From the NCBI GenBank assembly GCA_031256445.1, contig JAIRQN010000013.1, forward strand, positions 1 to 44,432: a DNA stretch of 44,432 bases, given 5' to 3'. The notes beneath the pieces were generated by a model. It had not been told where the DNA came from and ran no database searches. It was given only the letters and a program-made list of their open reading frames with translations. This DNA is from Treponema sp. Its GTDB lineage: Bacteria; Spirochaetota; Spirochaetia; Treponematales; Breznakiellaceae. The translations under genes were made by a program, and so were the position numbers. Below, in pieces: positions 9,343-38,623 of the stretch. Position 1 is the stretch's first letter, and every line of letters starts with the position of its first letter.

Positions 9343-9972
9343 ATGATTGATGAAGCACTATCATTGTTAACAGACCTTGGAGAGTTTGCATTGGATAGTT
9401 TTATAGGTAATGGAATTATAAAAGATGTGCCAATAATTGGTCCCACATTTGATATAATAAAGATTTCCAAGAATATAAATGACATGGTATTTATCGGTAA
9501 ATTAAAAGTGTTCATGGAAAATGTAGATAAAAATGAAAAGTGGAAAGATAAATTTTCTGATGAATCTGAATGTGAAAAAATTTCAAAAAAGATATTATAT
9601 ATTATAAATTCTTCTGATGATGAAGATAAATTAAAATTAATAGGATTTTCTTTTAACTTATTTGTAAATGGTGAAATAAATAAGGATGATTATTTCTTTA
9701 TTGTAAATATATTTAATCAATCATTTTTTCCTTATCTGAAATTATTAATGGAAATTGATTTTGAACAATTTACAAACAATGGAGAAATATTTAATATGTA
9801 TGCAATCGCTCATTTATTGACAATAGGAGCATTGGATCAATATAGTCAAACTTTAGGGGGATATGATGAGAGTAAAACATATATACCATCTCATAAAATC
9901 GTATGCATCAATTATTTTGGCAAATATATAAAGAACATTTTGATGCAAATGAATAATAAAAAGCAAAAATAA
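9343..9972 (+). CDS. Unrecognised 209-aa protein, strongly A+T-rich gene
   Basis: I do not recognise a named family with confidence. The N-terminal 55 residues are moderately hydrophobic (FIGNGIIKDVPIIGPTFDIIKISKNI). They are followed by a lysine- and acid-rich helical region and a more hydrophobic segment (FFIVNIFNQSFFPYLKLL). A PIIG-containing start followed by a FIGKLKVFM-like helix recalls small hypothetical proteins found in accessory islands, but this is recollection, not evidence of function. Codon use is far richer in A and T than in the flanking sugar-transport and pheS genes, suggesting horizontal acquisition. Translation signals are weak. A 43-bp repeat hairpin begins two bases after the stop codon. 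Confidence 0.7.
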   Translation: MIDEALSLLTDLGEFALDSFIGNGIIKDVPIIGPTFDIIKISKNINDMVFIGKLKVFMENVDKNEKWKDKFSDESECEKISKKILYIINSSDDEDKLKLIGFSFNLFVNGEINKDDYFFIVNIFNQSFFPYLKLLMEIDFEQFTNNGEIFNMYAIAHLLTIGALDQYSQTLGGYDESKTYIPSHKIVCINYFGKYIKNILMQMNNKKQK

Positions 9973-9973
9973 T

Positions 9974-10016
9974 AATAGAGTTGTTCGATAACTTCAGTTA
10001 TTGAACAACTACCTTA
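9974..10016 (+). repeat. 43-bp hairpin repeat, copy A
   Basis: This segment folds into a stem of about 14-16 bp (GTTGTTCGATAACT against AGTTATTGAACAAC, with one G-T wobble) and a minimal loop. It is identical at all 43 bases to the reverse complement of 29616-29658. It lies two bases downstream of a stop codon, and its own AATAGAG edge contains a TAG, as in copy B. It probably acts as a transcription end or RNA-stabilising hairpin. Its exact duplication suggests recent movement or homogenisation. Confidence 0.85.
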
Positions 10017-10025
10017 GAATTTACG

Positions 10026-25311: not shown

Positions 25312-26478
25312 ATGGAAACGCTCCGCTACGGTCTTGATATGTATAAGCAGACCATGAACATTAAAAATGACGCAAAACCCGGCGCTGGTATGCCTATGAG
25401 TGAACCGGGTAAAACCCTGATAAAAACCGTAAAAAAACACGATGAAGATCAGGTTAAACCGGATATTTCAGCCGCCGGGGAATCCAAATACCGGCGCGTG
25501 GCGAAATTCCTGATACTTATCGGCAGCGAGCAGGCGTCAGAAATCCTCGCGGAGCTTGATCCTGAGCAGGTTGAAAAAATATCAAGAGAAATCGCGTTGA
25601 TTAAAGTAATAACTCCCGAAGAAGGAACGGAAATATTAAACGAATTTCATTCTCTTTTTTCCAGACCTTACAGCTATTCAGGACTGTCGCACGGCGGAAT
25701 TGAAACCGCGCGGCGGATACTTTACGCCTCAAAGGGAATTGAAAAGGGAGAGGCAATTCTTAACAGGGCCGTTCCCGCTTCAAGAGAGAATCTTTTCAGT
25801 TTCCTGGAGGATTTTTCCGCGGGACAGCTTGTTATGCTTCTTAAAAATGAGTCGGCTCAAACCGCGGCGTTAATTCTTTCCAGGCTGCCCGCGAAAATTT
25901 CCGCGGAAACATTGAGCAATATTCCGCATGAGCTTAAAGCGGAGGTTCTGCGCCGAATCGCGCATCAGAGCGAAGTATCCCCCGAGGTGCTTGAACAGGT
26001 GGCGTCCGCGCTAAAGGAAAAAGTCAGGCACATTTCCGGCAGGGCGAATGATATCGAAATAAACGGAATGGAAACATTGGCCGCCATTTTAAAACAGGGC
26101 GACTATTCTTTCGGCGACAAAATTATCAATGAACTTGAAGAAAGCAGTCCCGATATCGGCAAAGATTTAAAAGAAAAACTTTATACGCTCGATGATGTTA
26201 TAAATACTGTTGACAGGCCCATACAGATTAAGCTCGCGGCCATGTCGGAAAAGGATATTGCTGTTTTAATAAAGGGCAGAAGGCCGGAATTCTGCGAAAA
26301 AATAATGTCCTGCGTTTCGGCGGGACGGCGGAAATTAATCCGCGAAGAATCAGAAATTCTGGGCGCGATTCCAAAAAGGGATTGCGACGCAATGGCGAAT
26401 GAGTTCCTGGCATGGTTCAGGCTTGCCCGCGAAAACGGGGATATTATACTCTACAATGACAAGGATGTGTTTTTATGA
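25312..26478 (+). CDS. fliG: FliG paralogue (flagellar rotor/switch-type protein)
   Basis: FliG proteins join the flagellar MS ring to the C ring and interact with the stator. This 388-aa protein has the three-domain layout: LILIGSEQASEILAELDPEQVEKISREIA (about 64-95), the middle domain with ESAQTAALILSRLP in place of the usual EHPQ motif, and a C-terminal domain (AVLIKGRRPEFCEKI). In that domain the conserved lysine is kept, the usual DD pair is replaced by REESE, and the later arginine region is altered (GAIPKRD). Spirochaetes encode two FliG proteins, and this divergence suggests the FliG1-type paralogue. Its stop codon overlaps the start of the M16 peptidase gene in ATGA. About 60 polar residues precede the conserved start. 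Confidence 0.87.
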   Translation: METLRYGLDMYKQTMNIKNDAKPGAGMPMSEPGKTLIKTVKKHDEDQVKPDISAAGESKYRRVAKFLILIGSEQASEILAELDPEQVEKISREIALIKVITPEEGTEILNEFHSLFSRPYSYSGLSHGGIETARRILYASKGIEKGEAILNRAVPASRENLFSFLEDFSAGQLVMLLKNESAQTAALILSRLPAKISAETLSNIPHELKAEVLRRIAHQSEVSPEVLEQVASALKEKVRHISGRANDIEINGMETLAAILKQGDYSFGDKIINELEESSPDIGKDLKEKLYTLDDVINTVDRPIQIKLAAMSEKDIAVLIKGRRPEFCEKIMSCVSAGRRKLIREESEILGAIPKRDCDAMANEFLAWFRLARENGDIILYNDKDVFL

Positions 26479-29400
26479 ATGACATTTCACATAACGAAAC
26501 AGGTTCTTCTGCGCCAAAGACCGGCCTGAAAAAAGGGCAGGTTCTGGACAGCGGATTCGCGATTCTTGACGTGGTCGATCTGGAGGAGCTGAACGCCGCC
26601 GGAATTTGGGCGAAGCATGAAAAAACCGGCGCCGAAGTTTTTCATGTTCTAAATGATGACATCGAAAATCTTTTTACATTCGCTTTTGCGACATTTCCCC
26701 AGGATAATACCGGAGCGCCACATATCCTTGAACATTCCGTTCTTTGCGGCTCGCAGCGTTATCCGCTAAAAGACGCTTTTATTACTCTTGCCCAGGGGAG
26801 CCTTCAGACATTTTTAAACGCGATCACCTTTCCGGATAAAACCGTGTATCCCGCAAGTTCCATAAACGAACATGATTATTTTAACCTTATGTCAGTATAC
26901 GGCGATGCCGTTTTCAGGCCTCTGCTTCCGGAGTGGACTTTTATGCAGGAGGGGCACAGATACGAATTTACAGGCGGCGATAAGCGTCTTTCCATAACAG
27001 GCGTTGTCTACAATGAAATGAAAGGCGCATATTCTTCCCTTGATACATTCGCCGGTCTCTGGTCGGTAAAGGCGGTTATGCCGGGAACGCCCTATGCTTT
27101 TGAATCGGGCGGCGATCCGGAATTCATTCCCGGTCTGACATGGGAAGGTTTAAAAGAATTTCATTTAAGCCGTTATTCGCCCGCCAACTGCCGCGTCTTT
27201 TTGGCGGGTAACATTCCCACGGAAAAGCAGTTGTCTTTTCTGAACGATCAATTTTTTTCCGGCATTGAAGGAGGAAAAGCCTGCGCGCCCGTGAATAAAA
27301 CGCAAAGGTGGCAAGAGCCCAAAAAATTCATTATTCCATGCCCTGCGGGGAATGAAAGCAAATCGACAATTTTTCTTTCATGGCTCTGCGGCGATGTGAC
27401 CGATACAGATGAAAATATCGCGCTTGCGGCGCTTACCGAAATTCTATTGGGTCATGACGGCTCTCCGCTTACAAGGGCGCTCATTGAATCAGGTCTTGGA
27501 GAGGATATCACGCCTGTGTCCGGGCTTGAAGCGGAAATCAGGGAGACATTGTTTGTCGCCGGTCTTAAAGGCGTTGCCGGCGATACAGGGCAAATGTCGC
27601 GCGCAGTGGAAGATTTAATAATGAACGAGCTGCGCAGGCTCGCGGAAGAGGGAATCGCGGCGGAGGAAATACAAGCCGCACTTTTGGCGATGGAGTTTTC
27701 ACAGCGGGAGATTAAACGCTCAGTCGGCCCGTTCTCGCTTGTCTGGATGCGCCGCTCTCTGCGGTCGTGGCTGCACGGATGCAAACCCTGGGAAAGCCTT
27801 CTTTATAACCCGGCAATAGCGAAAATAAAGGAAAATCACGCGGCGGACAGCGGATATTTTGAAAAAATTATTAAAAAATATTTTATTGATAACCCGCACC
27901 GCGCGCTGGTTGTCCTTGAGCCGAAGGATGATTACCTCCCGCTGCAGGAGGAGAGGCTTTCCCGGACGCTCGCTCTCAGGGAAAAAGAATTGACAGATAA
28001 CGAACGCCGGCTGATAGTTGAAAAATCAGAAGCGCTGGAAAAAATTCAAAGCGAAGCTGACAGTGAGCAGGCCCTCGCGGCTATTCCTCATCTTTCACGT
28101 AACGACCTTAAGCCCGAAGATGATCATATTCACCGCAGGTATGAGGTTCTGCGCAGCGAAGGCGTCGTACGTTGCAGCGAAGGCGTCGTACTCGGCAGCG
28201 CGTGCGGGATACCGGCTCTTTATCACGATCTTTTTACGAACGGCATCACATATACCGACATAGCCTTTCCCGTTGATACTTTATCCGGCGATGATTATAT
28301 CTGGCTTCCGTTTTTTTCAAGAGCGTCTGTTTCTGTCGGCCTCCCCGGAATGGATTACGGCGAGGTTTCCAGCCTGTTGGCGAGAACGGTGGGCGGTTTC
28401 ATCGCGTCTCTGCACACGGGATCGGCAGTAAAAAACGCGGCGTATCCGGCAGGAGCGGCGCATCCAGCAGGTGCGGCGCAGAATCTTCACAGCGCATTCG
28501 GCTCTTTGGATTTAACAGGCCGTGACTGGCTTGTCTACAGAATGAAATGCCTTGATGAAAAAATCGCGCCTTCGCTTGATCTGGCGCTGCGTTTATTAAG
28601 CGAAGCGGATTTTTCAGATAAAAGACGCATTAACGATCTTGTGCTGGAGATGAAAAATGAATTAGATTCCAGCCTTGCGCCGGCAGGGCATATATACGCG
28701 TCAGGAAGAGCCGGGCGGTTTAATTCACGATCCAAAAAAATCGAAGAGCAATGGTCCGGCCTTTCGCAGATTAATTTTGTTCACCGGCTTGCGGAACTGG
28801 AAACGGATGAGGTTATAAAAAAACTTGTTTACCTGCGGGAGAAAATCGCCGGATCGGGGCTAATCGCCAACATTACAGGCCGCGCTCCTGAAACCGCCGG
28901 CGCGGAATTTGCGCAAAGGTTCGGCGGATTCGGCTCACCGGCGCCGCGCGTTTCTTCCGGTGAATCCTCATTATGCGCCGGTTCCGGCGCGTGCTCAGAC
29001 CGCCGCGCCGAAGTGTACGCGTCCGCTTCGCTGCAGATCGGCTTTGCGGCGCTTGCTTTAAACGCCGCGCCGTTTGACACGATGGAACAAACCGCGGAAC
29101 AGGTTTTATCGCATCAGCTTTCCACAGGGGCGTTATGGGAAGATATTCGCATGAAAGGCGGCGCTTACGGCGCTTATGTAAACGCCGATCATCTTGAGGA
29201 TTGCGTTTGTTTTGCGACATACCGCGATCCGAATCCCCTGCGTTCTCTGGATGTCATTTCCGCTATACTGAAGAACGGCTCCGGCAAAGATCAATATTCC
29301 CTCGGTGACGAGGATAATCTGGTAAAATCCATCATCGGCTGTTATGCGAAAGAGACAAGGCCGCGGACAAGCGCCGAGAACGGGCTTATTGATTTTTTCA

Positions 29401-29600
29401 GATTCCTTTACGGCATGGAAGACAGTTACCGGAAAAGAAAAATGGAACGGCTTGTTTCGGTTTCAACATCGGATTTATCTTCGGCGTTTAAAGCCCTTGG
29501 TTCAAGACAGGTTCACGGAACGGTTGTTATTGCCGGAATGAAGAACGCCGAAGAAGCGGCAAAGTCGCTGGGCGCTGAAGTGCAGATATTGCCAGTGTAA
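26475..29600 (+). CDS. M16C-type zinc metallopeptidase (presequence-protease/insulinase family)
   Basis: This 1041-aa peptidase belongs to the pitrilysin superfamily, subfamily of PreP/Cym1, which degrades short peptides inside a closed chamber. The inverted zinc motif HxxEH is intact (H83, E86, H87 in HILEHSVLCGS) and the distal glutamate is E181 (NEMKGAYSS). The C-terminal half supplies the second, inactive half of the chamber (GGAYGAYVNADH). No signal peptide is seen, so it is probably cytoplasmic. Two low-complexity insertions lie between the halves: a 21-bp tandem repeat (28153-28200) and an 18-bp tandem repeat (28439-28479). It starts within the fliG stop codon (ATGA, four-base overlap), with AGGA upstream, implying translational coupling. 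Confidence 0.92.
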   Translation: MNDISHNETGSSAPKTGLKKGQVLDSGFAILDVVDLEELNAAGIWAKHEKTGAEVFHVLNDDIENLFTFAFATFPQDNTGAPHILEHSVLCGSQRYPLKDAFITLAQGSLQTFLNAITFPDKTVYPASSINEHDYFNLMSVYGDAVFRPLLPEWTFMQEGHRYEFTGGDKRLSITGVVYNEMKGAYSSLDTFAGLWSVKAVMPGTPYAFESGGDPEFIPGLTWEGLKEFHLSRYSPANCRVFLAGNIPTEKQLSFLNDQFFSGIEGGKACAPVNKTQRWQEPKKFIIPCPAGNESKSTIFLSWLCGDVTDTDENIALAALTEILLGHDGSPLTRALIESGLGEDITPVSGLEAEIRETLFVAGLKGVAGDTGQMSRAVEDLIMNELRRLAEEGIAAEEIQAALLAMEFSQREIKRSVGPFSLVWMRRSLRSWLHGCKPWESLLYNPAIAKIKENHAADSGYFEKIIKKYFIDNPHRALVVLEPKDDYLPLQEERLSRTLALREKELTDNERRLIVEKSEALEKIQSEADSEQALAAIPHLSRNDLKPEDDHIHRRYEVLRSEGVVRCSEGVVLGSACGIPALYHDLFTNGITYTDIAFPVDTLSGDDYIWLPFFSRASVSVGLPGMDYGEVSSLLARTVGGFIASLHTGSAVKNAAYPAGAAHPAGAAQNLHSAFGSLDLTGRDWLVYRMKCLDEKIAPSLDLALRLLSEADFSDKRRINDLVLEMKNELDSSLAPAGHIYASGRAGRFNSRSKKIEEQWSGLSQINFVHRLAELETDEVIKKLVYLREKIAGSGLIANITGRAPETAGAEFAQRFGGFGSPAPRVSSGESSLCAGSGACSDRRAEVYASASLQIGFAALALNAAPFDTMEQTAEQVLSHQLSTGALWEDIRMKGGAYGAYVNADHLEDCVCFATYRDPNPLRSLDVISAILKNGSGKDQYSLGDEDNLVKSIIGCYAKETRPRTSAENGLIDFFRFLYGMEDSYRKRKMERLVSVSTSDLSSAFKALGSRQVHGTVVIAGMKNAEEAAKSLGAEVQILPV
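28153..28200 (+). repeat. 21-bp tandem repeat inside the M16 peptidase gene
   Basis: Two copies (28153-28173 and 28174-28194) are identical for the first 18 bases and are followed by a six-base partial copy. They are in frame and encode SEGVV repeated. The segment is an inserted loop in the linker between the two peptidase halves. Confidence 0.8.
28439..28479 (+). repeat. 18-bp tandem repeat inside the M16 peptidase gene, shared with the thioesterase gene
   Basis: Two 18-bp units (28439-28456 and 28457-28474) plus a partial third encode A-Y/H-P-A-G-A repeats in frame. Positions 28457-28479 are identical over 23 bp to 32892-32914, inside the thioesterase gene, which is transcribed from the other strand. 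Confidence 0.85.
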
Positions 29601-29615
29601 TGCTATTGGAAATTT

Positions 29616-29658
29616 TAAGGTAGTTGTTCAATAACTGAAGTTATCGAACAACTCTATT
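29616..29658 (-). repeat. 43-bp hairpin repeat, copy B, between convergent genes
   Basis: This is identical at all 43 bases to the reverse complement of 9974-10016. It sits between two converging genes: 15 bases after the M16 peptidase stop, and overlapping the end of the minus-strand gene, whose TAG stop (29654-29656) lies inside the repeat. Its strong stem suggests a two-way transcription end. Confidence 0.85.
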
Positions 29659-31729
29659 GTTTCTTTCTCAGCGCTTCCTTGAATATCTGATCGGCATCCA
29701 CTTTTTCATCTACGCCGAATAACGGAACAATGCCCTCGTTTTTAATGCTTCGGAACAAAGGGCCGGGACGGTTTCCGTAAGACCAGCTGTTTTCGTCGTT
29801 AACGATATGATCCAGCACAGCGACCGCGGATAACGTAAAAAATACCAGCGTAGCGTTCATTCTTTTTTCCGGAGGAAGCATTATATTCAGCCGTTTTGAG
29901 ATTGGATTTGGCACCTGAAAATTATAACTTTCCCACGGATTATGAATTCCGTTGCACTGGATTCTTGCCTGCGCTCCGCCTGCGCGTACGCCCTGTTCAA
30001 TGCCCATTGCCACAGATGTAATATATTTCCGTAATTTTCTTACCTGACTGTAAATTGGAATAACGTCTTTTTTCTGAAATGTCGGAGGCCCCATTGATTC
30101 AAATTTGTAATAGGGAAGAAAATAAAGCCTTTTTATCCAGTGGAGTTCATTCAATGTTTTCTTCGCGTAAATGGACGATCTTGCATCCTGGGAATTTTCC
30201 AGCATGCGGCAATAATCCGATAAACGGGGAAGATATTCCTTATCGAAACTTTCACTGATATATGAACGCCAGTTGTTTATTATCTCGCCCAGTTCGTCGA
30301 TTATTCTGACAAGGTTTCCGTCCGGGCCGGCGATAGACCCGAAGTTCACATAACGCACGGCTATAAAAAGATCTTCCAGTATGTGCATAAGGACTGCGAC
30401 CTGCATCAGCGGGTCTCCCGGAGCGATTAATTCGTAACCGTGTCTGAGATTGTAAATGCCTGAAAAATACGGATACATATCCGGATATTCATCAAGTTTG
30501 TCCCATCCGGCTTTTGGATAAATAGTCTCAAGAGATGATCTTCCCTGTTCAAGCGCCTTTTGTTCCGCCTTTTCAGCTTCTTCTTTGGCTTTGCGCTCAG
30601 CTGTTTTTGGATCGTTGGGATCTTCTTCTTCTTCGGACAGTATCTCCTCTTCCTGCGTTTCCGGGGAATTTTCCTCTTCTTCTTCAGTATTCTGCACAAG
30701 AGCTTCCACATCCATATTTTCAATCAACTGGGGATTCATGTCCGAGGCATTCAACTGTTCCGATTCTGTAATATTAAGAAAGGCCATGTAGCGGTTGCGT
30801 CTTTCAATAAAAAAGCGTTCGTAGGAAATAAAGCGATCCGAAATCAGTTTCATTAAAAGGGGATACATTCCAAATTGAATTTCACGTCTGACAGAGCTTA
30901 TTGACGCGGTGATGCTGCGGATTGCATCCTGATATTTTTCTTTCGCTTCCATCGGGCTTTCTATGTAAAGGATTTTATAAATTAACTTAAAAACCGATTT
31001 TAAATCATCCGCGCTTAATCCTTCGATAATAAAAAGCGGCCTGTATACCTCCTTCAGTATCTGTGTAAAATCATCCGATTTAACATTGCGCGGACGCGCC
31101 TGCAATATTGAAAGACTGCTCGCTATTCCTTCTATGTTCCAGCTGCGTATTGCATCAAACGCTTTATAAACAAAAGGAGACGCTCTTTTTAATTGATTGT
31201 CGCGTTTTTTGTTTGTCTTGGGAAACAGATGCCTTGCCGCAAATACAAGCTGTTCAATTTTATTAAAGTAGTCGTTCATTCTTTTTACGACAAAAACAGA
31301 GCTGATATAGTCCACAGGCGTTCTGAAAAATGAAAACAACGATGTGAGCACCTGAATGGAATTTTTAATATCAAAAATCGCCTGGCCTGCGTATTGATCC
31401 ATTTTTATCCGTTCAAAATATCCCAGCCTTAATGGTTTTGCGGGATCATCGCCGGGATACGGGCCTTTGTTCTTTACTATTCCCAGTAGATCATTCCCGT
31501 CGTCATCCATTCCGGACATGTCTATTCTGCGGCGTTTGCCGCCCTTACCCACGCTGAGCTCCACTGTTTCCTTTCTGGGATTTTTGGGTTCCGTGTTTCG
31601 TTCTGTACCGACTTCGCCGCCAAGCAGCTGAGCCATTCTTTTGGCTTCGGCGTCATTTGTTACGCCTAGTTTATCCCGGACGCGGCTTAATTCGCCGGGC
31701 GCATAAATCGCGTTTGAATTTTTAGCCAT
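29654..31729 (-). CDS. Unrecognised 691-aa protein with an acidic central segment
   Basis: I cannot name the family. The protein has no signal peptide or clear membrane segment. Residues 1-90 are polar and basic (ELSVGKGGKRRR). Residues 95-330 are helical and rich in aromatic and basic residues. A strongly acidic, probably disordered stretch (about 345-385, NTEEEEENSPETQEEEILSE) runs into an alanine/lysine coiled segment. Residues 400-691 are again folded-looking (GIYNLRHGYELIAPGDPLMQVAVLMHILEDLFIAV). It resembles large conserved treponemal hypotheticals in style. It starts two bases after the DUF2804 gene ends, so the two are co-transcribed. Its stop codon is supplied by repeat copy B. Confidence 0.8.
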   Translation of the reverse strand: MAKNSNAIYAPGELSRVRDKLGVTNDAEAKRMAQLLGGEVGTERNTEPKNPRKETVELSVGKGGKRRRIDMSGMDDDGNDLLGIVKNKGPYPGDDPAKPLRLGYFERIKMDQYAGQAIFDIKNSIQVLTSLFSFFRTPVDYISSVFVVKRMNDYFNKIEQLVFAARHLFPKTNKKRDNQLKRASPFVYKAFDAIRSWNIEGIASSLSILQARPRNVKSDDFTQILKEVYRPLFIIEGLSADDLKSVFKLIYKILYIESPMEAKEKYQDAIRSITASISSVRREIQFGMYPLLMKLISDRFISYERFFIERRNRYMAFLNITESEQLNASDMNPQLIENMDVEALVQNTEEEEENSPETQEEEILSEEEEDPNDPKTAERKAKEEAEKAEQKALEQGRSSLETIYPKAGWDKLDEYPDMYPYFSGIYNLRHGYELIAPGDPLMQVAVLMHILEDLFIAVRYVNFGSIAGPDGNLVRIIDELGEIINNWRSYISESFDKEYLPRLSDYCRMLENSQDARSSIYAKKTLNELHWIKRLYFLPYYKFESMGPPTFQKKDVIPIYSQVRKLRKYITSVAMGIEQGVRAGGAQARIQCNGIHNPWESYNFQVPNPISKRLNIMLPPEKRMNATLVFFTLSAVAVLDHIVNDENSWSYGNRPGPLFRSIKNEGIVPLFGVDEKVDADQIFKEALRKKQ

Positions 31730-32861: not shown

Positions 32862-33719
32862 CTAAACCCACAGGCGAAGCTCTGCGCGGAAGGCGCATCC
32901 AGCAGGTGCGGCGCTTCCAGTAGGTGCGGCGCTTTGGCTGTTTTCTGTTTTGCGGCCTTCAAAAGCGAAGGCGGTGATGTTTTTGTCTTCGGTTTCCAGC
33001 GGAGCATACGCCAGATTGATGGTTTCGCCGGCGAGGATTTCGTTCATATAATTGATGTCCAGTCGCATTTTTTCAGCCTGTTCCAGACAGCGCGGGTCGA
33101 TAACGTCTTCTATCCACTTAATATAGCTGACATTGTTAACATGCCCGTTGTAATCAACATCATTGTAAAGCGCGCGCCTTTCGGTTTTTACGCACAGCGG
33201 GTTTGCGCCCGATGATACGTCCGTTTGCAGAATGCCGCGTTCTTCAAGGCCGGCAGGTCCGGATGTAAGGGCGTTCAGCCCTTCGTTACCGGGCAGGCTG
33301 CCCATAACCGATTGCGGCCTCAGCGGCCGCCGTTTTTCAATGTCAACAATCAGCCATCCGCTGCGGGCCGAAACTACGGGAATATCGTCTTTGTCGCGTA
33401 TGTCGTAATCGCGGATAGCGAAAAGTTTCTCTCCTCCCCGGGGCCAGCTTCGGACAGTGATGGTTTCGCCGTACTTAGGCCGCCTGTCTGCCATTACCGA
33501 CATCCGGGAAAGTATCCAGACCTGGCCCGTCCTGGCCATGTCTTCCCTGCCAACCAAAAGGTTTTCAGCATGGCAGATTGCCGCTTCCTGAAAAAATTGA
33601 AGCGCCGCGTTTAATGTCAATCTGTCCGATCTGTCGATTGCGCCGAACCTTACGGGAAATGTTTCCTGCCAGATATTTACCGGTCCTGATGCTTTTGGAT
33701 TTGCCGCGTCACATTTCAT
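32862..33719 (-). CDS. Acyl-ACP thioesterase (FatA/FatB-like, double hotdog)
   Basis: This enzyme would hydrolyse acyl-ACP to free fatty acid, setting acyl chain release. The 285-aa protein has two hotdog halves. The first contains FQEAAICHAENLLVG and QVWILSRMSV. The second contains the catalytic-type motif DYNGHVNNVSYIKWIED, with the Asn-His pair of this family. The C-terminal tail carries an 18-bp tandem repeat (SAAPTG, SAAPAG) just before the last strand. The ATG at 33719 lies inside the end of pssA (11-bp overlap), so translation is coupled to phospholipid synthesis genes. A cysteine in the tail (GCAF) is part of the repeat insertion. Confidence 0.88.
   Translation of the reverse strand: MKCDAANPKASGPVNIWQETFPVRFGAIDRSDRLTLNAALQFFQEAAICHAENLLVGREDMARTGQVWILSRMSVMADRRPKYGETITVRSWPRGGEKLFAIRDYDIRDKDDIPVVSARSGWLIVDIEKRRPLRPQSVMGSLPGNEGLNALTSGPAGLEERGILQTDVSSGANPLCVKTERRALYNDVDYNGHVNNVSYIKWIEDVIDPRCLEQAEKMRLDINYMNEILAGETINLAYAPLETEDKNITAFAFEGRKTENSQSAAPTGSAAPAGCAFRAELRLWV
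32892..32933 (-). repeat. 18-bp tandem repeat inside the thioesterase gene
   Basis: Units at 32892-32909 and 32910-32927, plus a partial third, encode S-A-A-P-T/A-G in the thioesterase frame. The first unit and its flank (32892-32914) are identical to 28457-28479 in the M16 peptidase gene, but there the opposite strand is the coding one, giving a different peptide. Confidence 0.85.
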
Positions 33720-35623: not shown

Positions 35624-35743
35624 TACAAATGAACAGTGAACAGTTATTGGTGAACAATGGGGCTGTCCGAGAAGTCGGTTACTTCACGAACAGCCATTGT
35701 TCATTTTTCACTGTTCACCGTTCCATTTGTTCACCTTTTTTTT
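35624..35743 (+). terminator. Large nested palindrome with T-run between convergent genes
   Basis: An outer imperfect inverted repeat (ACAAATGAACAGTGAAC near 35625 against GTTC...CATTTGTTC near 35720) surrounds GAACAATGG/CCATTGTTC and a central hairpin, 35659-35695. Eight T follow at 35736-35743. It should stop transcription of the 102-aa protein gene and separates it from the converging lipoprotein gene. The central hairpin (35659-35691) matches 1264-1296 in reverse at 30 of 33 positions. Confidence 0.75.
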
Positions 35744-35749
35744 AAACCA

Positions 35750-38623
35750 CTAATTGGCTGGTACCAATGCAATGTCGTCTATTGCGATAGGCGGTTGAGC
35801 GCCGACTGAGCCGTCATTGCGCCAGGTGAATATTAACCGCCATTCACCGCCGTTGTTGTACCCTGCGGGAATTGGAATTTCAGCCAAATTCCAGGTATCA
35901 ACAGGGCTCAGATTGAATGTTCCCAAAACTTCTGATGCCGTCGGTGCAAAAGTACCTGCTGCCGGTGTTGTTGACGTTGCCGCAATATATACTCTTAAAG
36001 TGTCAGCTGGATTAGTGCCAGTGCCTTCACCCCGCGCTTTCCAATTGAATTGTAAAGTATTGCTTCCTTCCGGAATTGTCACATCTACATACGCATGTGC
36101 CGCCGCATTGGTGGAGGTGATTGTATAGGAATTTCCGGCTCCGTTGTTGGTAATATAGAGAGACTTGGCGCCGCTATTGGCAGTAGATGAACCCCACATC
36201 CAATAATTGGGTTGTGTTCCGTTTACAAAAGTAAATGGATTTTCCGATTCAAAATTTGCGCTCCATGTACTGCCTGCCGGAGGAGTCTGTACCGCGGGGG
36301 GTGTGGGTGCGGTTGACGTTACCAACATGATGTCGTCTATTGCGGCAGGCGGTTGAACGCAGACTGTCTTGTCATTGCGCCAGGTGAATATTAACCGCCA
36401 TTCACCGCCGTTGTTGTACCCTGCGGGAATTGGAATTTCAGCCAAATTCCAGGTATCAACATTACTCATGTTGAATGTTCCCAAAGGTTCTGCTCCTGCC
36501 GGTATAAGAGTGCCTGCTGCCGGTACTGTTGCCGCTGCTGACGCAAGATATACTATGAAAGCGTCTCTTAAATCAGCTAATTCACCCCGAGCTTTCCAAT
36601 TAAACCGTAATGTAGTAGCTCCGGTTGCCGGTATTGTTACATTTGTGTACGCATGTGCTGCCGCATTGGTGGTGGTGATTGTATAGGCATTTCCGCCTCC
36701 GTTATTGGTGACATAGAGAGACTTGGCGCCGCTATTGGCAGTGGACGCGCCAACCATCCAATAATTGGCCTGCGTTCCGCTTACAAAAGTAAACGGATTT
36801 TCCGATTCAAAATTTGCGACCCATGTAGCTCCTGCCGGAAGAGTCTGTATTGCGGGGGGTGTGGGTGCGGTTGACGTTACCAACATGATGTCGTCTATTG
36901 CGGCAGGCGGTTGCTCGCCGACTGAGCTGTCATTGCGCCAGGTAAATATTAACCGCCATGCACCACCGTTGTACCCTGCGGGAATTGGAATTTCAGCCTC
37001 ATTCCAGGTATCAACAAGACTCATGTTGAATGTTCCCAAAGGTTCTGCTCCTGCCGGTATAAGAGTGCCTGCTACCGGTACTGTTGCCGCTGCTGACGCA
37101 AGATATACTATGAAAGCGTCTCTTAATTCAGTCGCTTCACCCCGAGCTTTCCAATTAAACCTTAATGTAGTAGCTCCGGTTGCCGGTATTGTTACATTTG
37201 TGTACGCATGTGACACGCTGGTTGTGTTGATAGTATAGTTATTTCCGCCTCCGTTGTTGGTGACATAGAGAGACTTGGCGCCGCTATTGGCGGTGGACGC
37301 GCCAACCATCCAATAATTGAGTTGCGTTCCGCTTACAAAAGTAAACGGATGATTTTCCGCTTCAAAATTTGCGATCCATGTAGCGCCTGACGGAAGAGTT
37401 TGTATTGCGGGGGGTGTGGGTGCGGTTGTCTCATACAATAAAATATTGTCTATTGCAACAGGCGGTTGAGTGCCGCCTGTGGCGTCATTGCGCCAGGTAA
37501 ATATTAACCGCCATTCACCGTCGTTGTACCCTGCGGGAATCGGGATTTCAGCCTCATTCCAGGTATCAACAGGACTCATGTTGAATGTTCCCAAAGCTTG
37601 CGATGCCGCCGGTGGTGTAAAAGTTGTACTTGTACTTGCTGCCGGTGTTGTTGAAGTTGGCGCAATAAATACTGTCAAATAGTCATACGGAGTGGTGGTG
37701 CCTTCACCCCGCGCTTTCCAATCAAATTCTAAAACAGCCCCGTTTGCCGGTATTTCTACGTCTATGTACGCATGTACAATGCTGGCGGAGTTGAGGGTAT
37801 AGGCATTTCCGGCTCCGTTGTTACTAATATAGAGAGACTTGGTGCCGCCATTGGCAGTGGCTGTACCTACCACCCACTGATTGGCTGCTGACCCGTTTTC
37901 TAAAGTAAACTGATGGGCAGTATTTTCAAAATTTTCGCTCAATATTGGGGGGCCCGCAGGAGCAGTAATAGTTATGGAAAGCGCTTTTGTATCTTCTCCT
38001 TCGTCGTTCTCCGCTTTTACGGTAAAGTTAGATGTTCCGGCAGTAGTTGGCGTTCCCGATATTATGCCTGTTGTCTCCGCGAGTTCTAAGCCTGCCGGTA
38101 ATGTCCCGCTGTCGATACTCCATGTAATGGGCGCAGTGCCAGTTGCCTCAAGGGTTTGGCTGTACGCAACCCCTACATCGCCGTCCGGCAGAGTAGTGGT
38201 AGTTATTGTTGGGGATGCCGTCGGCTCCGGCGCAATCACTATAGAAAGCGCCTTTGTGTTTTCTCCACCGGCGTTTTCCGCTTTTACGGTAAAGTTCGAC
38301 GTTCCGGCGGCGTTTGGCGTTCCCGATATTACGCCTGTTGCCGGCACAAGGGTCAAACCGCCGGGCAAGGTTCCGCTTCCGCTGACAATACTCCATGTGA
38401 TGGGCGTGTCGCCAGTTGCCTCAAGGGTTTGGCTGTACGCAGTCCCTACTTCGCCGTCAGGCAAGGAAACCGTGGTTATGGCGGGGGGAACTGCGGGTGT
38501 TGTTGTACTGCCGTCATCGCAAGATACTGCAACAAATCCTATTAATGTGATTATGGCAACAAACCATAATGTGCGGACGCAGATACGGACTTTAGCCCGA
38601 TTAGTCCGTTGTGTGTTTTTCAT
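35750..38623 (-). CDS. Large surface lipoprotein: two Ig-like (He_PIG) domains and four near-identical beta-rich repeats
   Basis: This 957-aa protein is predicted to be lipidated at C35 (signal sequence ending FVAVSC). Residues about 45-225 form two putative-Ig repeats of the He_PIG type (LPDGEVGTAYSQTLEATG, ISGTP...TSNFTVKAEN). Residues about 228-957 form four copies of a 185-residue unit (ENFEN...NYWMVGASTANSGAKSLYVTNN...LRFNWKARGE...LGTFNMS.VDTWNEAEIPIPAGY...WRLIFTWRND...AIDDI). The unit resembles cleaved-adhesin or MAM-like jelly-roll domains, which would suit carbohydrate or surface binding; this is inference. AGGAGG about eight bases before the ATG gives a strong start. Confidence 0.85.
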   Translation of the reverse strand: MKNTQRTNRAKVRICVRTLWFVAIITLIGFVAVSCDDGSTTTPAVPPAITTVSLPDGEVGTAYSQTLEATGDTPITWSIVSGSGTLPGGLTLVPATGVISGTPNAAGTSNFTVKAENAGGENTKALSIVIAPEPTASPTITTTTLPDGDVGVAYSQTLEATGTAPITWSIDSGTLPAGLELAETTGIISGTPTTAGTSNFTVKAENDEGEDTKALSITITAPAGPPILSENFENTAHQFTLENGSAANQWVVGTATANGGTKSLYISNNGAGNAYTLNSASIVHAYIDVEIPANGAVLEFDWKARGEGTTTPYDYLTVFIAPTSTTPAASTSTTFTPPAASQALGTFNMSPVDTWNEAEIPIPAGYNDGEWRLIFTWRNDATGGTQPPVAIDNILLYETTAPTPPAIQTLPSGATWIANFEAENHPFTFVSGTQLNYWMVGASTANSGAKSLYVTNNGGGNNYTINTTSVSHAYTNVTIPATGATTLRFNWKARGEATELRDAFIVYLASAAATVPVAGTLIPAGAEPLGTFNMSLVDTWNEAEIPIPAGYNGGAWRLIFTWRNDSSVGEQPPAAIDDIMLVTSTAPTPPAIQTLPAGATWVANFESENPFTFVSGTQANYWMVGASTANSGAKSLYVTNNGGGNAYTITTTNAAAHAYTNVTIPATGATTLRFNWKARGELADLRDAFIVYLASAAATVPAAGTLIPAGAEPLGTFNMSNVDTWNLAEIPIPAGYNNGGEWRLIFTWRNDKTVCVQPPAAIDDIMLVTSTAPTPPAVQTPPAGSTWSANFESENPFTFVNGTQPNYWMWGSSTANSGAKSLYITNNGAGNSYTITSTNAAAHAYVDVTIPEGSNTLQFNWKARGEGTGTNPADTLRVYIAATSTTPAAGTFAPTASEVLGTFNLSPVDTWNLAEIPIPAGYNNGGEWRLIFTWRNDGSVGAQPPIAIDDIALVPAN
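35752..37960 (-). repeat. Four tandem ~557-bp repeats within the lipoprotein gene
   Basis: Matching landmarks (ATGTCGTCTATTGCG or close variants) recur near 35768, 36328, 36885 and, more diverged, 37441, giving a period of about 557 bp. The two middle copies are the most alike, with long blocks of identical DNA. Such repeats can gain or lose units by recombination. Confidence 0.8.

Follow-up and report, generated by a model that had tools for sequence, protein, structure and literature searches.

An 18-bp unit dispersed by in-frame insertion at GCGC in unrelated genes of a termite-gut Treponema

How do two unrelated genes come to carry the same short tandem repeat, read from opposite strands? 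The question is raised by a contig of Treponema sp. (GCA_031256445.1, contig JAIRQN010000013.1, 44,432 nucleotides, here called the window in its full length), in which an 18-bp unit is repeated in a gene for an M16 metallopeptidase and again in a gene for an acyl-ACP thioesterase. The window is one contig of a 2.79-Mb metagenome-assembled genome (MAG; G000), which is 97.7% complete, and the relatives of its M16 gene come from termite-gut Treponema MAGs. The answer that we favour, and consider probable, is that the unit represents tiny insertion elements dispersed over the genome, which would spread by microhomology-templated copying at GCGC.

The first array (28437-28480, forward strand; GCGGCGTATCCGGCAGGAGCGGCGCATCCAGCAGGTGCGGCGCA) holds 2.4 copies with a period of 18 and lies in the gene of an M16C peptidase of the PreP type (26475-29600, forward strand, 1041 aa; PF08367, PF05193 and PF22516). 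Its unit 1 is GCGTATCCGGCAGGAGCG (28440-28457) and its unit 2 is GCGCATCCAGCAGGTGCG (28458-28475), which is followed by GCGCA. The second array (32892-32934, given on the forward strand; GGCGCATCCAGCAGGTGCGGCGCTTCCAGTAGGTGCGGCGCTT), again of 2.4 copies with a period of 18, lies in the thioesterase gene, which runs on the reverse strand (32862-33719, 285 aa; PF01643 and PF20791), and reads GCGCATCCAGCAGGTGCG in unit 1 (32893-32910), GCGCTTCCAGTAGGTGCG in unit 2 (32911-32928) and then GCGC. The two arrays are identical over 23 bases (28457-28479 and 32892-32914), and they are translated as AAYPAGAAHPAGAAQ in the peptidase and, from the opposite strand, as SAAPTGSAAPAGCA in the thioesterase. The original prediction of one 18-bp repeat shared by the two genes on opposite strands was exact in its positions and shared bases, and Pfam confirms the identity of both genes. 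The window holds four matches to the 18-mer with at most 3 mismatches, whereas 0.03 are expected from dinucleotide shuffles.

A search of the whole genome on both strands, which had been proposed together with that prediction, placed the unit at dozens of unrelated loci. The 23-mer with at most 3 mismatches gave 30 matches against 0 for its reversed control, and the degenerate 21-mer GCGYATCCRGCRGGWGCGGCG gave 67 against 2, although a share of those with three mismatches will be due to chance. These 67 matches make up about 49 arrays, and in about 20 of these a unit lies no more than 1 mismatch from the degenerate consensus (near-exact). The consensus unit, GCGCATCCRGCRGGWGCG, is 18 bp long and occurs in 1 to 4 head-to-tail copies per locus. 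The arrays are almost all intragenic, and every near-exact one stands within an open frame, on one strand or the other. Host genes supported by Pfam include those of RsmG/GidB, amidophosphoribosyltransferase (PurF), DNA polymerase III delta', FliG, beta-ketoacyl synthase, MGMT, RNase II/RNB, GH1, GH20, GH115, a GH5-like enzyme, an AraC regulator and the RNase P protein subunit. The hosts are unrelated and mostly housekeeping genes, neither surface antigens nor contingency loci.

Comparison with orthologues shows that the copies entered these genes as net in-frame inserts, mostly of 18n bp, adjoining GCGC. About 70 M16 orthologues, nearly all from spirochaetes, were aligned, and none has the AAYPAGAAHPAG segment; most of the close ones are 12 residues shorter at the position of the array, which corresponds to a net insert of 36 bp (12 codons). 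The ten thioesterase orthologues all read NGQAAFRAEL or close to it, whereas the window protein reads NSQSAAPTGSAAPAGCAFRAEL, exactly 12 residues (net 36 bp) more. The same peptide repeats at the same place in distant orthologues, which would have spoken for ordinary low-complexity sequence, were thus found in neither protein. In the AlphaFold model of the thioesterase, which is weak overall (mean predicted local distance difference test score, pLDDT, of 57) and was used for its C-terminal hairpin only, the insert is modelled as a loop (residues 261-271, pLDDT below 50) between two strands with pLDDT of about 70-80. Elsewhere in the genome, the inserts amount to 12 residues in the ketoacyl synthase, 24 in MGMT, 9 in PurF, 9 in the GH1 enzyme, 6 in the GH5-like enzyme and 12 in a DUF4340 protein, while around the RsmG and delta' arrays the surrounding stretch is too variable for the insert to be sized. 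The inserts had been expected to be strain-specific; the comparison, with one genome per species, establishes them as lineage-specific between species.

Other inserts were seen in the same two genes. At 28153-28200 the M16 gene carries another lineage-specific insert, about 17 residues long (SEGVVRCSEGVV...) and built of a 21-bp tandem repeat (GCAGCGAAGGCGTCGTACG..), which is unrelated in sequence to the 18-bp unit and is absent from the ten closest orthologues shown. The thioesterase has a further insert of 11 residues (about DVSSGANPLCV) after about residue 165, missing in 10 of 10 orthologues. This lineage may gain small inserts unusually often.

An empty site can be read base by base in the gene of GcvPB (glycine dehydrogenase) in two close species of another genus of the family, G101 and its congener G100. 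Their proteins are 95% identical over the stretch of the insert, and the difference is exactly 18 bp: G101 has AGTGATACT-GCGCATCCAGCAGGTGCG-GCGCGGAC and G100 has AGTGATACT-GCGCGGAC, with GCGC (TGCGCG) already present at the site. Orthologues of the ketoacyl synthase (GGCGCT), PurF (TGCGCG) and MGMT (GGCGCC) likewise have GCGC at the homologous point. The array boundaries point to the same tetranucleotide. Among arrays of at least 36 bp, in which the search pattern does not set the phase, 13 of 14 start at or just before GGCGC (p = 6e-7) and 13 of 14 end at or just after it (p = 4e-5). From GCGC at both the array ends and the empty sites, the net event can be written as GCGC -> GCGC(ATCCRGCRGGWGCGGCGC)n. 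The tetranucleotide is not strongly avoided in the genome (observed/expected 0.84, one per 142 bp).

The unit is translated in three ways in unrelated genes, as AHPAGA, as APAGCA (from the opposite strand) and as GASSRS. These three frames, which give small and flexible residues, account for 18 of the 19 near-exact copies (6, 7 and 5) and the other three frames for a single one, which reads RIHQVR and belongs to the basic tail of the RNase P protein; for copies with at most 2 mismatches the proportion is 30 of 33. By chance, at least 18 of 19 copies in three of six frames would have p = 4e-5 (binomial, by hand), and we read this bias as selection after insertion. Because the unit recurs at dozens of unrelated sites, on both strands and in several frames, it is the DNA and not the peptide that is conserved. 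The suggestion that the unit can enter genes because both strands are open is correct in that all six frames are open, and is not upheld as a special trait of the unit, since 50% of its own shuffles are equally open (12% of random 18-mers at the GC content of the genome).

The unit has multiplied in one termite-gut Treponema lineage. A stricter pattern matched 35 times in this genome, whereas none of 39 congeners exceeded 3 matches. Of 200 genomes in the family, 12 have a match, and second to this genome stands G101, with 5; in a set of 395 genomes of the class this genome alone has more than one match. At 3 mismatches, 14 matches against 0 in the control were found in G027, and 15 against 4 in G101. 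Some one-mismatch matches elsewhere are due to chance, as with the unrelated conserved motif DASCASSGSGA, which resembles the unit and lies in a radical-SAM gene in G138 and G019, and the sparse matches in other genomes were not counted as copies. The viral contigs of IMG/VR contain no exact match to the unit, on which ground a phage vehicle was rejected. In G053, which belongs to another genus, three units stand in an ORF (C276:6271-6327; L062, L100) ahead of an 18-bp unit of another sequence, GCGTCCGGYTGGCGCAGT, which is possibly a sister family.

These results carry the idea of a coding-tolerant micro-element, put forward originally from the two genes: the family counts and the orthologues support an element that acts at the DNA level, disperses and inserts in frame into unrelated genes. 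For its movement, we infer microhomology-templated copying. A 3' end that has broken or stalled at GCGC would pair with the GCGC that opens every unit of a donor array, copy one or more 18-bp periods and then rejoin its own site at GCGC. The products would be 18n-bp inserts flanked by GCGC on both sides, in either orientation because GCGC is palindromic, and essential genes could survive them because 18 is a multiple of three. Unequal slippage would afterwards alter the copy number, and purifying selection would clear the copies in bad frames or places. A weak hairpin in the unit might aid stalling or switching. The unit is predicted to fold as a small bulged hairpin of about six pairs (DNA energies, z -1.6 to -2.1), and strong covariation is confined to one pair of columns, predicted to pair in the stem (p = 4e-5 for all units, 8e-4 for one unit per array); this is suggestive of selection on the hairpin and compatible with either such selection or hairpin-driven template switching. 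We chose templated copying because it explains the target, the phase, the orientation and the insert length without an enzyme. A bolder reading, which we hold to be less likely than not, would make the 18-bp sequence an enzyme-free selfish replicator: owing to its own regularly spaced GCGC ends, cellular repair or replication would copy it in frame to further genes, whichever the strand, and it would thereby both spread and furnish proteins with six-residue inserts.

Several points weigh against this account. The GcvPB site is the only empty site resolved to the nucleotide, and the others rest on orthologues with about 45-85% protein identity. The inserts in PurF and GH1 are 27 bp long, equal to 1.5 units or to 18 bp with a 9-bp change, so that the 18n rule is not absolute; either the host lineage already had 9 of these bp, or copying took in half a unit. 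Likeness between units is only slightly greater within arrays than from one array to another (p = 0.02), and probably both the copying of mixed dimers and local duplication have contributed. The covariation in the hairpin is carried by few changes, with two double changes among one-per-array copies with at most 2 mismatches. A transposase could be encoded in the 2% that the MAG lacks, or be a member of a family outside those searched. Finally, templated copying leaves unexplained why only this sequence spread.

The strongest competitor, which we nevertheless regard as unlikely, is a transposase that moves the unit in trans, as has been proposed for RAYT (REP-associated tyrosine transposase) and the hairpins of repetitive extragenic palindromes (REP) and REPIN, with GCGC as the cleavage tetranucleotide at the foot of the imperfect hairpin (CGC-CC loop GG-GCG). 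The predicted fold, the covarying stem pair and the site-like array boundaries would all suit it, and Y1 transposase genes are present in G101 and G027, two other genomes with some copies. Yet no Y1 transposase (PF01797) was found in this genome, by far the richest in copies, with a search that was positive in control genomes; furthermore, GTAG/CGTC tags are lacking, the units are tandem and intragenic and not extragenic inverted pairs, and the covariation comes down to the two double changes mentioned above.

It is very improbable that the arrays are ordinary minisatellites, in which chance GC-rich seeds grew by slippage in each gene separately and never dispersed. Unrelated coding tandem repeats of 12, 15, 18 and 21 bp do occur in this genome and its relatives, and local duplication is visible in some arrays (C28, C53). 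However, slippage cannot yield one 18-mer in dozens of unrelated genes, for which controls give 0-2 matches, and the insert in G101 is a single unit at a site where the sister genome has no seed beyond GCGC. Since so many genes share the unit and the empty site differs by just one unit, pure slippage is refuted as a full account; it is left as a secondary process that changes copy number.

Two further routes have very little to recommend them. A GCGC cutter that frees 18-bp fragments with self-compatible ends, to be ligated into other cut GCGC sites, would account for the targets, both orientations and the 18n lengths; but a C5 DNA methylase of the HhaI kind (PF00145) was not found in this genome, GCGC is hardly avoided there, and ligation should also give head-to-head joins, whereas the arrays listed are head-to-tail. 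Equally doubtful is a reverse transcriptase or telomerase-like activity that adds 18-nt periods to breaks from an RNA template: tandem periods with a terminal GCGC do resemble primed templated addition, but no reverse transcriptase domain (RVT_1, PF00078) was found in this genome, and we know of no template RNA. Convergence in DNA of low-complexity Ala/Pro/Gly linkers under peptide selection is hardly credible, for although the peptides are rich in Ala, Pro, Gly and Ser and several stand where orthologues differ in length, the M16 orthologues have no such peptide at that position, and the reading of one DNA unit as three peptides over both strands refutes it.

Apart from the family, unbiased k-mer work on 444 kb of sampled stretches brought up a palindromic repeat, GTAGTTGTTCAATAACTGAAGTTATCGAACAACTCTATT, with about 8 copies, apparently intergenic (window 9966-10022 and 29610-29666; L182, L186, L190, L193, L197 and L199). 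Strongly over-represented 10-mers of the form GTTANNYGMA are scattered over the same stretches (the window and L182-L201), CAGCTAACGC occurring 13 times against 0.2 expected and GTTACGCGAA 15 times against 1.7. The window also has one large gene on the reverse strand (35762-37915) with four repeats of about 555 bp inside, and a 34-bp inverted pair, 91% complementary (1263-1296 and 35659-35692; TGTCCGTGAAGTAACCAACTTCCCGGACAGCCCC).

The unit is among the smallest spreading DNA elements known to us. How very small dispersed repeats move, be they the small dispersed repeats (SDR) of cyanobacteria, REP without RAYT or the Rickettsia palindromic elements (RPE), is an old question, and it becomes testable here because the unit is short, an empty site can be placed to the base in one pair of sister species, the target is a plain GCGC and none of the usual transposase, reverse transcriptase or methylase genes was found. 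The family also offers a bacterial route to whole-codon inserts in essential proteins: the genes of RsmG, delta', PurF, the ketoacyl synthase and MGMT stay open, with extra segments of 9 to 24 residues where these could be measured. A literature search that covered only a minority of the subscription journals turned up no description of an element like this from spirochaetes.

Among known systems, DNA uptake sequences are short single motifs that occur about once per 1-2 kb, and an uptake signal was rejected since the 18-bp unit is far too sparse (67 matches in 2.79 Mb) and was inserted, not built up by substitution. Variable number tandem repeats (VNTR) share a period that is a multiple of three and a variable copy number, but they are local, whereas this unit is common to dozens of unrelated loci. 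The REPs are mainly extragenic, often form inverted pairs, bear GTAG/CGTC tags and are often linked to RAYT (PMC3116915; PMC3733652). The unit resembles REP and REPIN in its small imperfect hairpin, its dozens of copies and its genome-specific expansion, but its arrays are intragenic, direct and untagged and end in GGCGC, and membership in the REP/REPIN-RAYT system was rejected by tag, place, arrangement and the missing PF01797. Palindromic amphipathic repeat coding elements (PARCEL) are likewise tandem repeats in coding sequence, have dyad symmetry and spread within genomes (PMC2996958); they differ in that they have 75-nt units, encode a conserved amphipathic domain and moved with whole ORFs, while 18 bp and no conserved protein are seen here.

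The RPE lie in frame in many unrelated protein genes and spread in particular lineages, with RPE-4 and RPE-6 being REP-like (PMC10969869; PMC3733652). The 18-bp unit is also in frame in unrelated protein genes and absent from their orthologues. However, RPE are described as about 100-150 bp long with a long palindrome, while the unit is 18 bp, weakly palindromic and tandem; and the RPE peptide is described as conserved, while near-exact copies of the unit divide about evenly among three frames on the two strands. The likeness to RPE that was first proposed is sound as an analogy between in-frame, selfish-like inserts, and not as membership, given size, tandem arrangement, frames and palindrome.

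Closest in kind appear to be the cyanobacterial SDR, which were reportedly treated by Elhai et al. in 2008. According to published accounts, SDR are about 20 bp long, stand in tandem in various numbers and are possibly mobile, and SDR5 inserts precisely within the short palindromic target HIP1, GCGATCGC (PMC2884548; PMC4390886). The likeness lies in a dispersed unit of about 20 bp in variable tandem number and in a fixed short target, which for the 18-bp unit is seen as GCGC at array ends and at empty sites, one of them at nucleotide level. The 18-bp unit, compared with SDR by description only, differs in belonging to another phylum, in targeting GCGC and in lying nearly always within genes and in frame. 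The family is new, of a kind already known.
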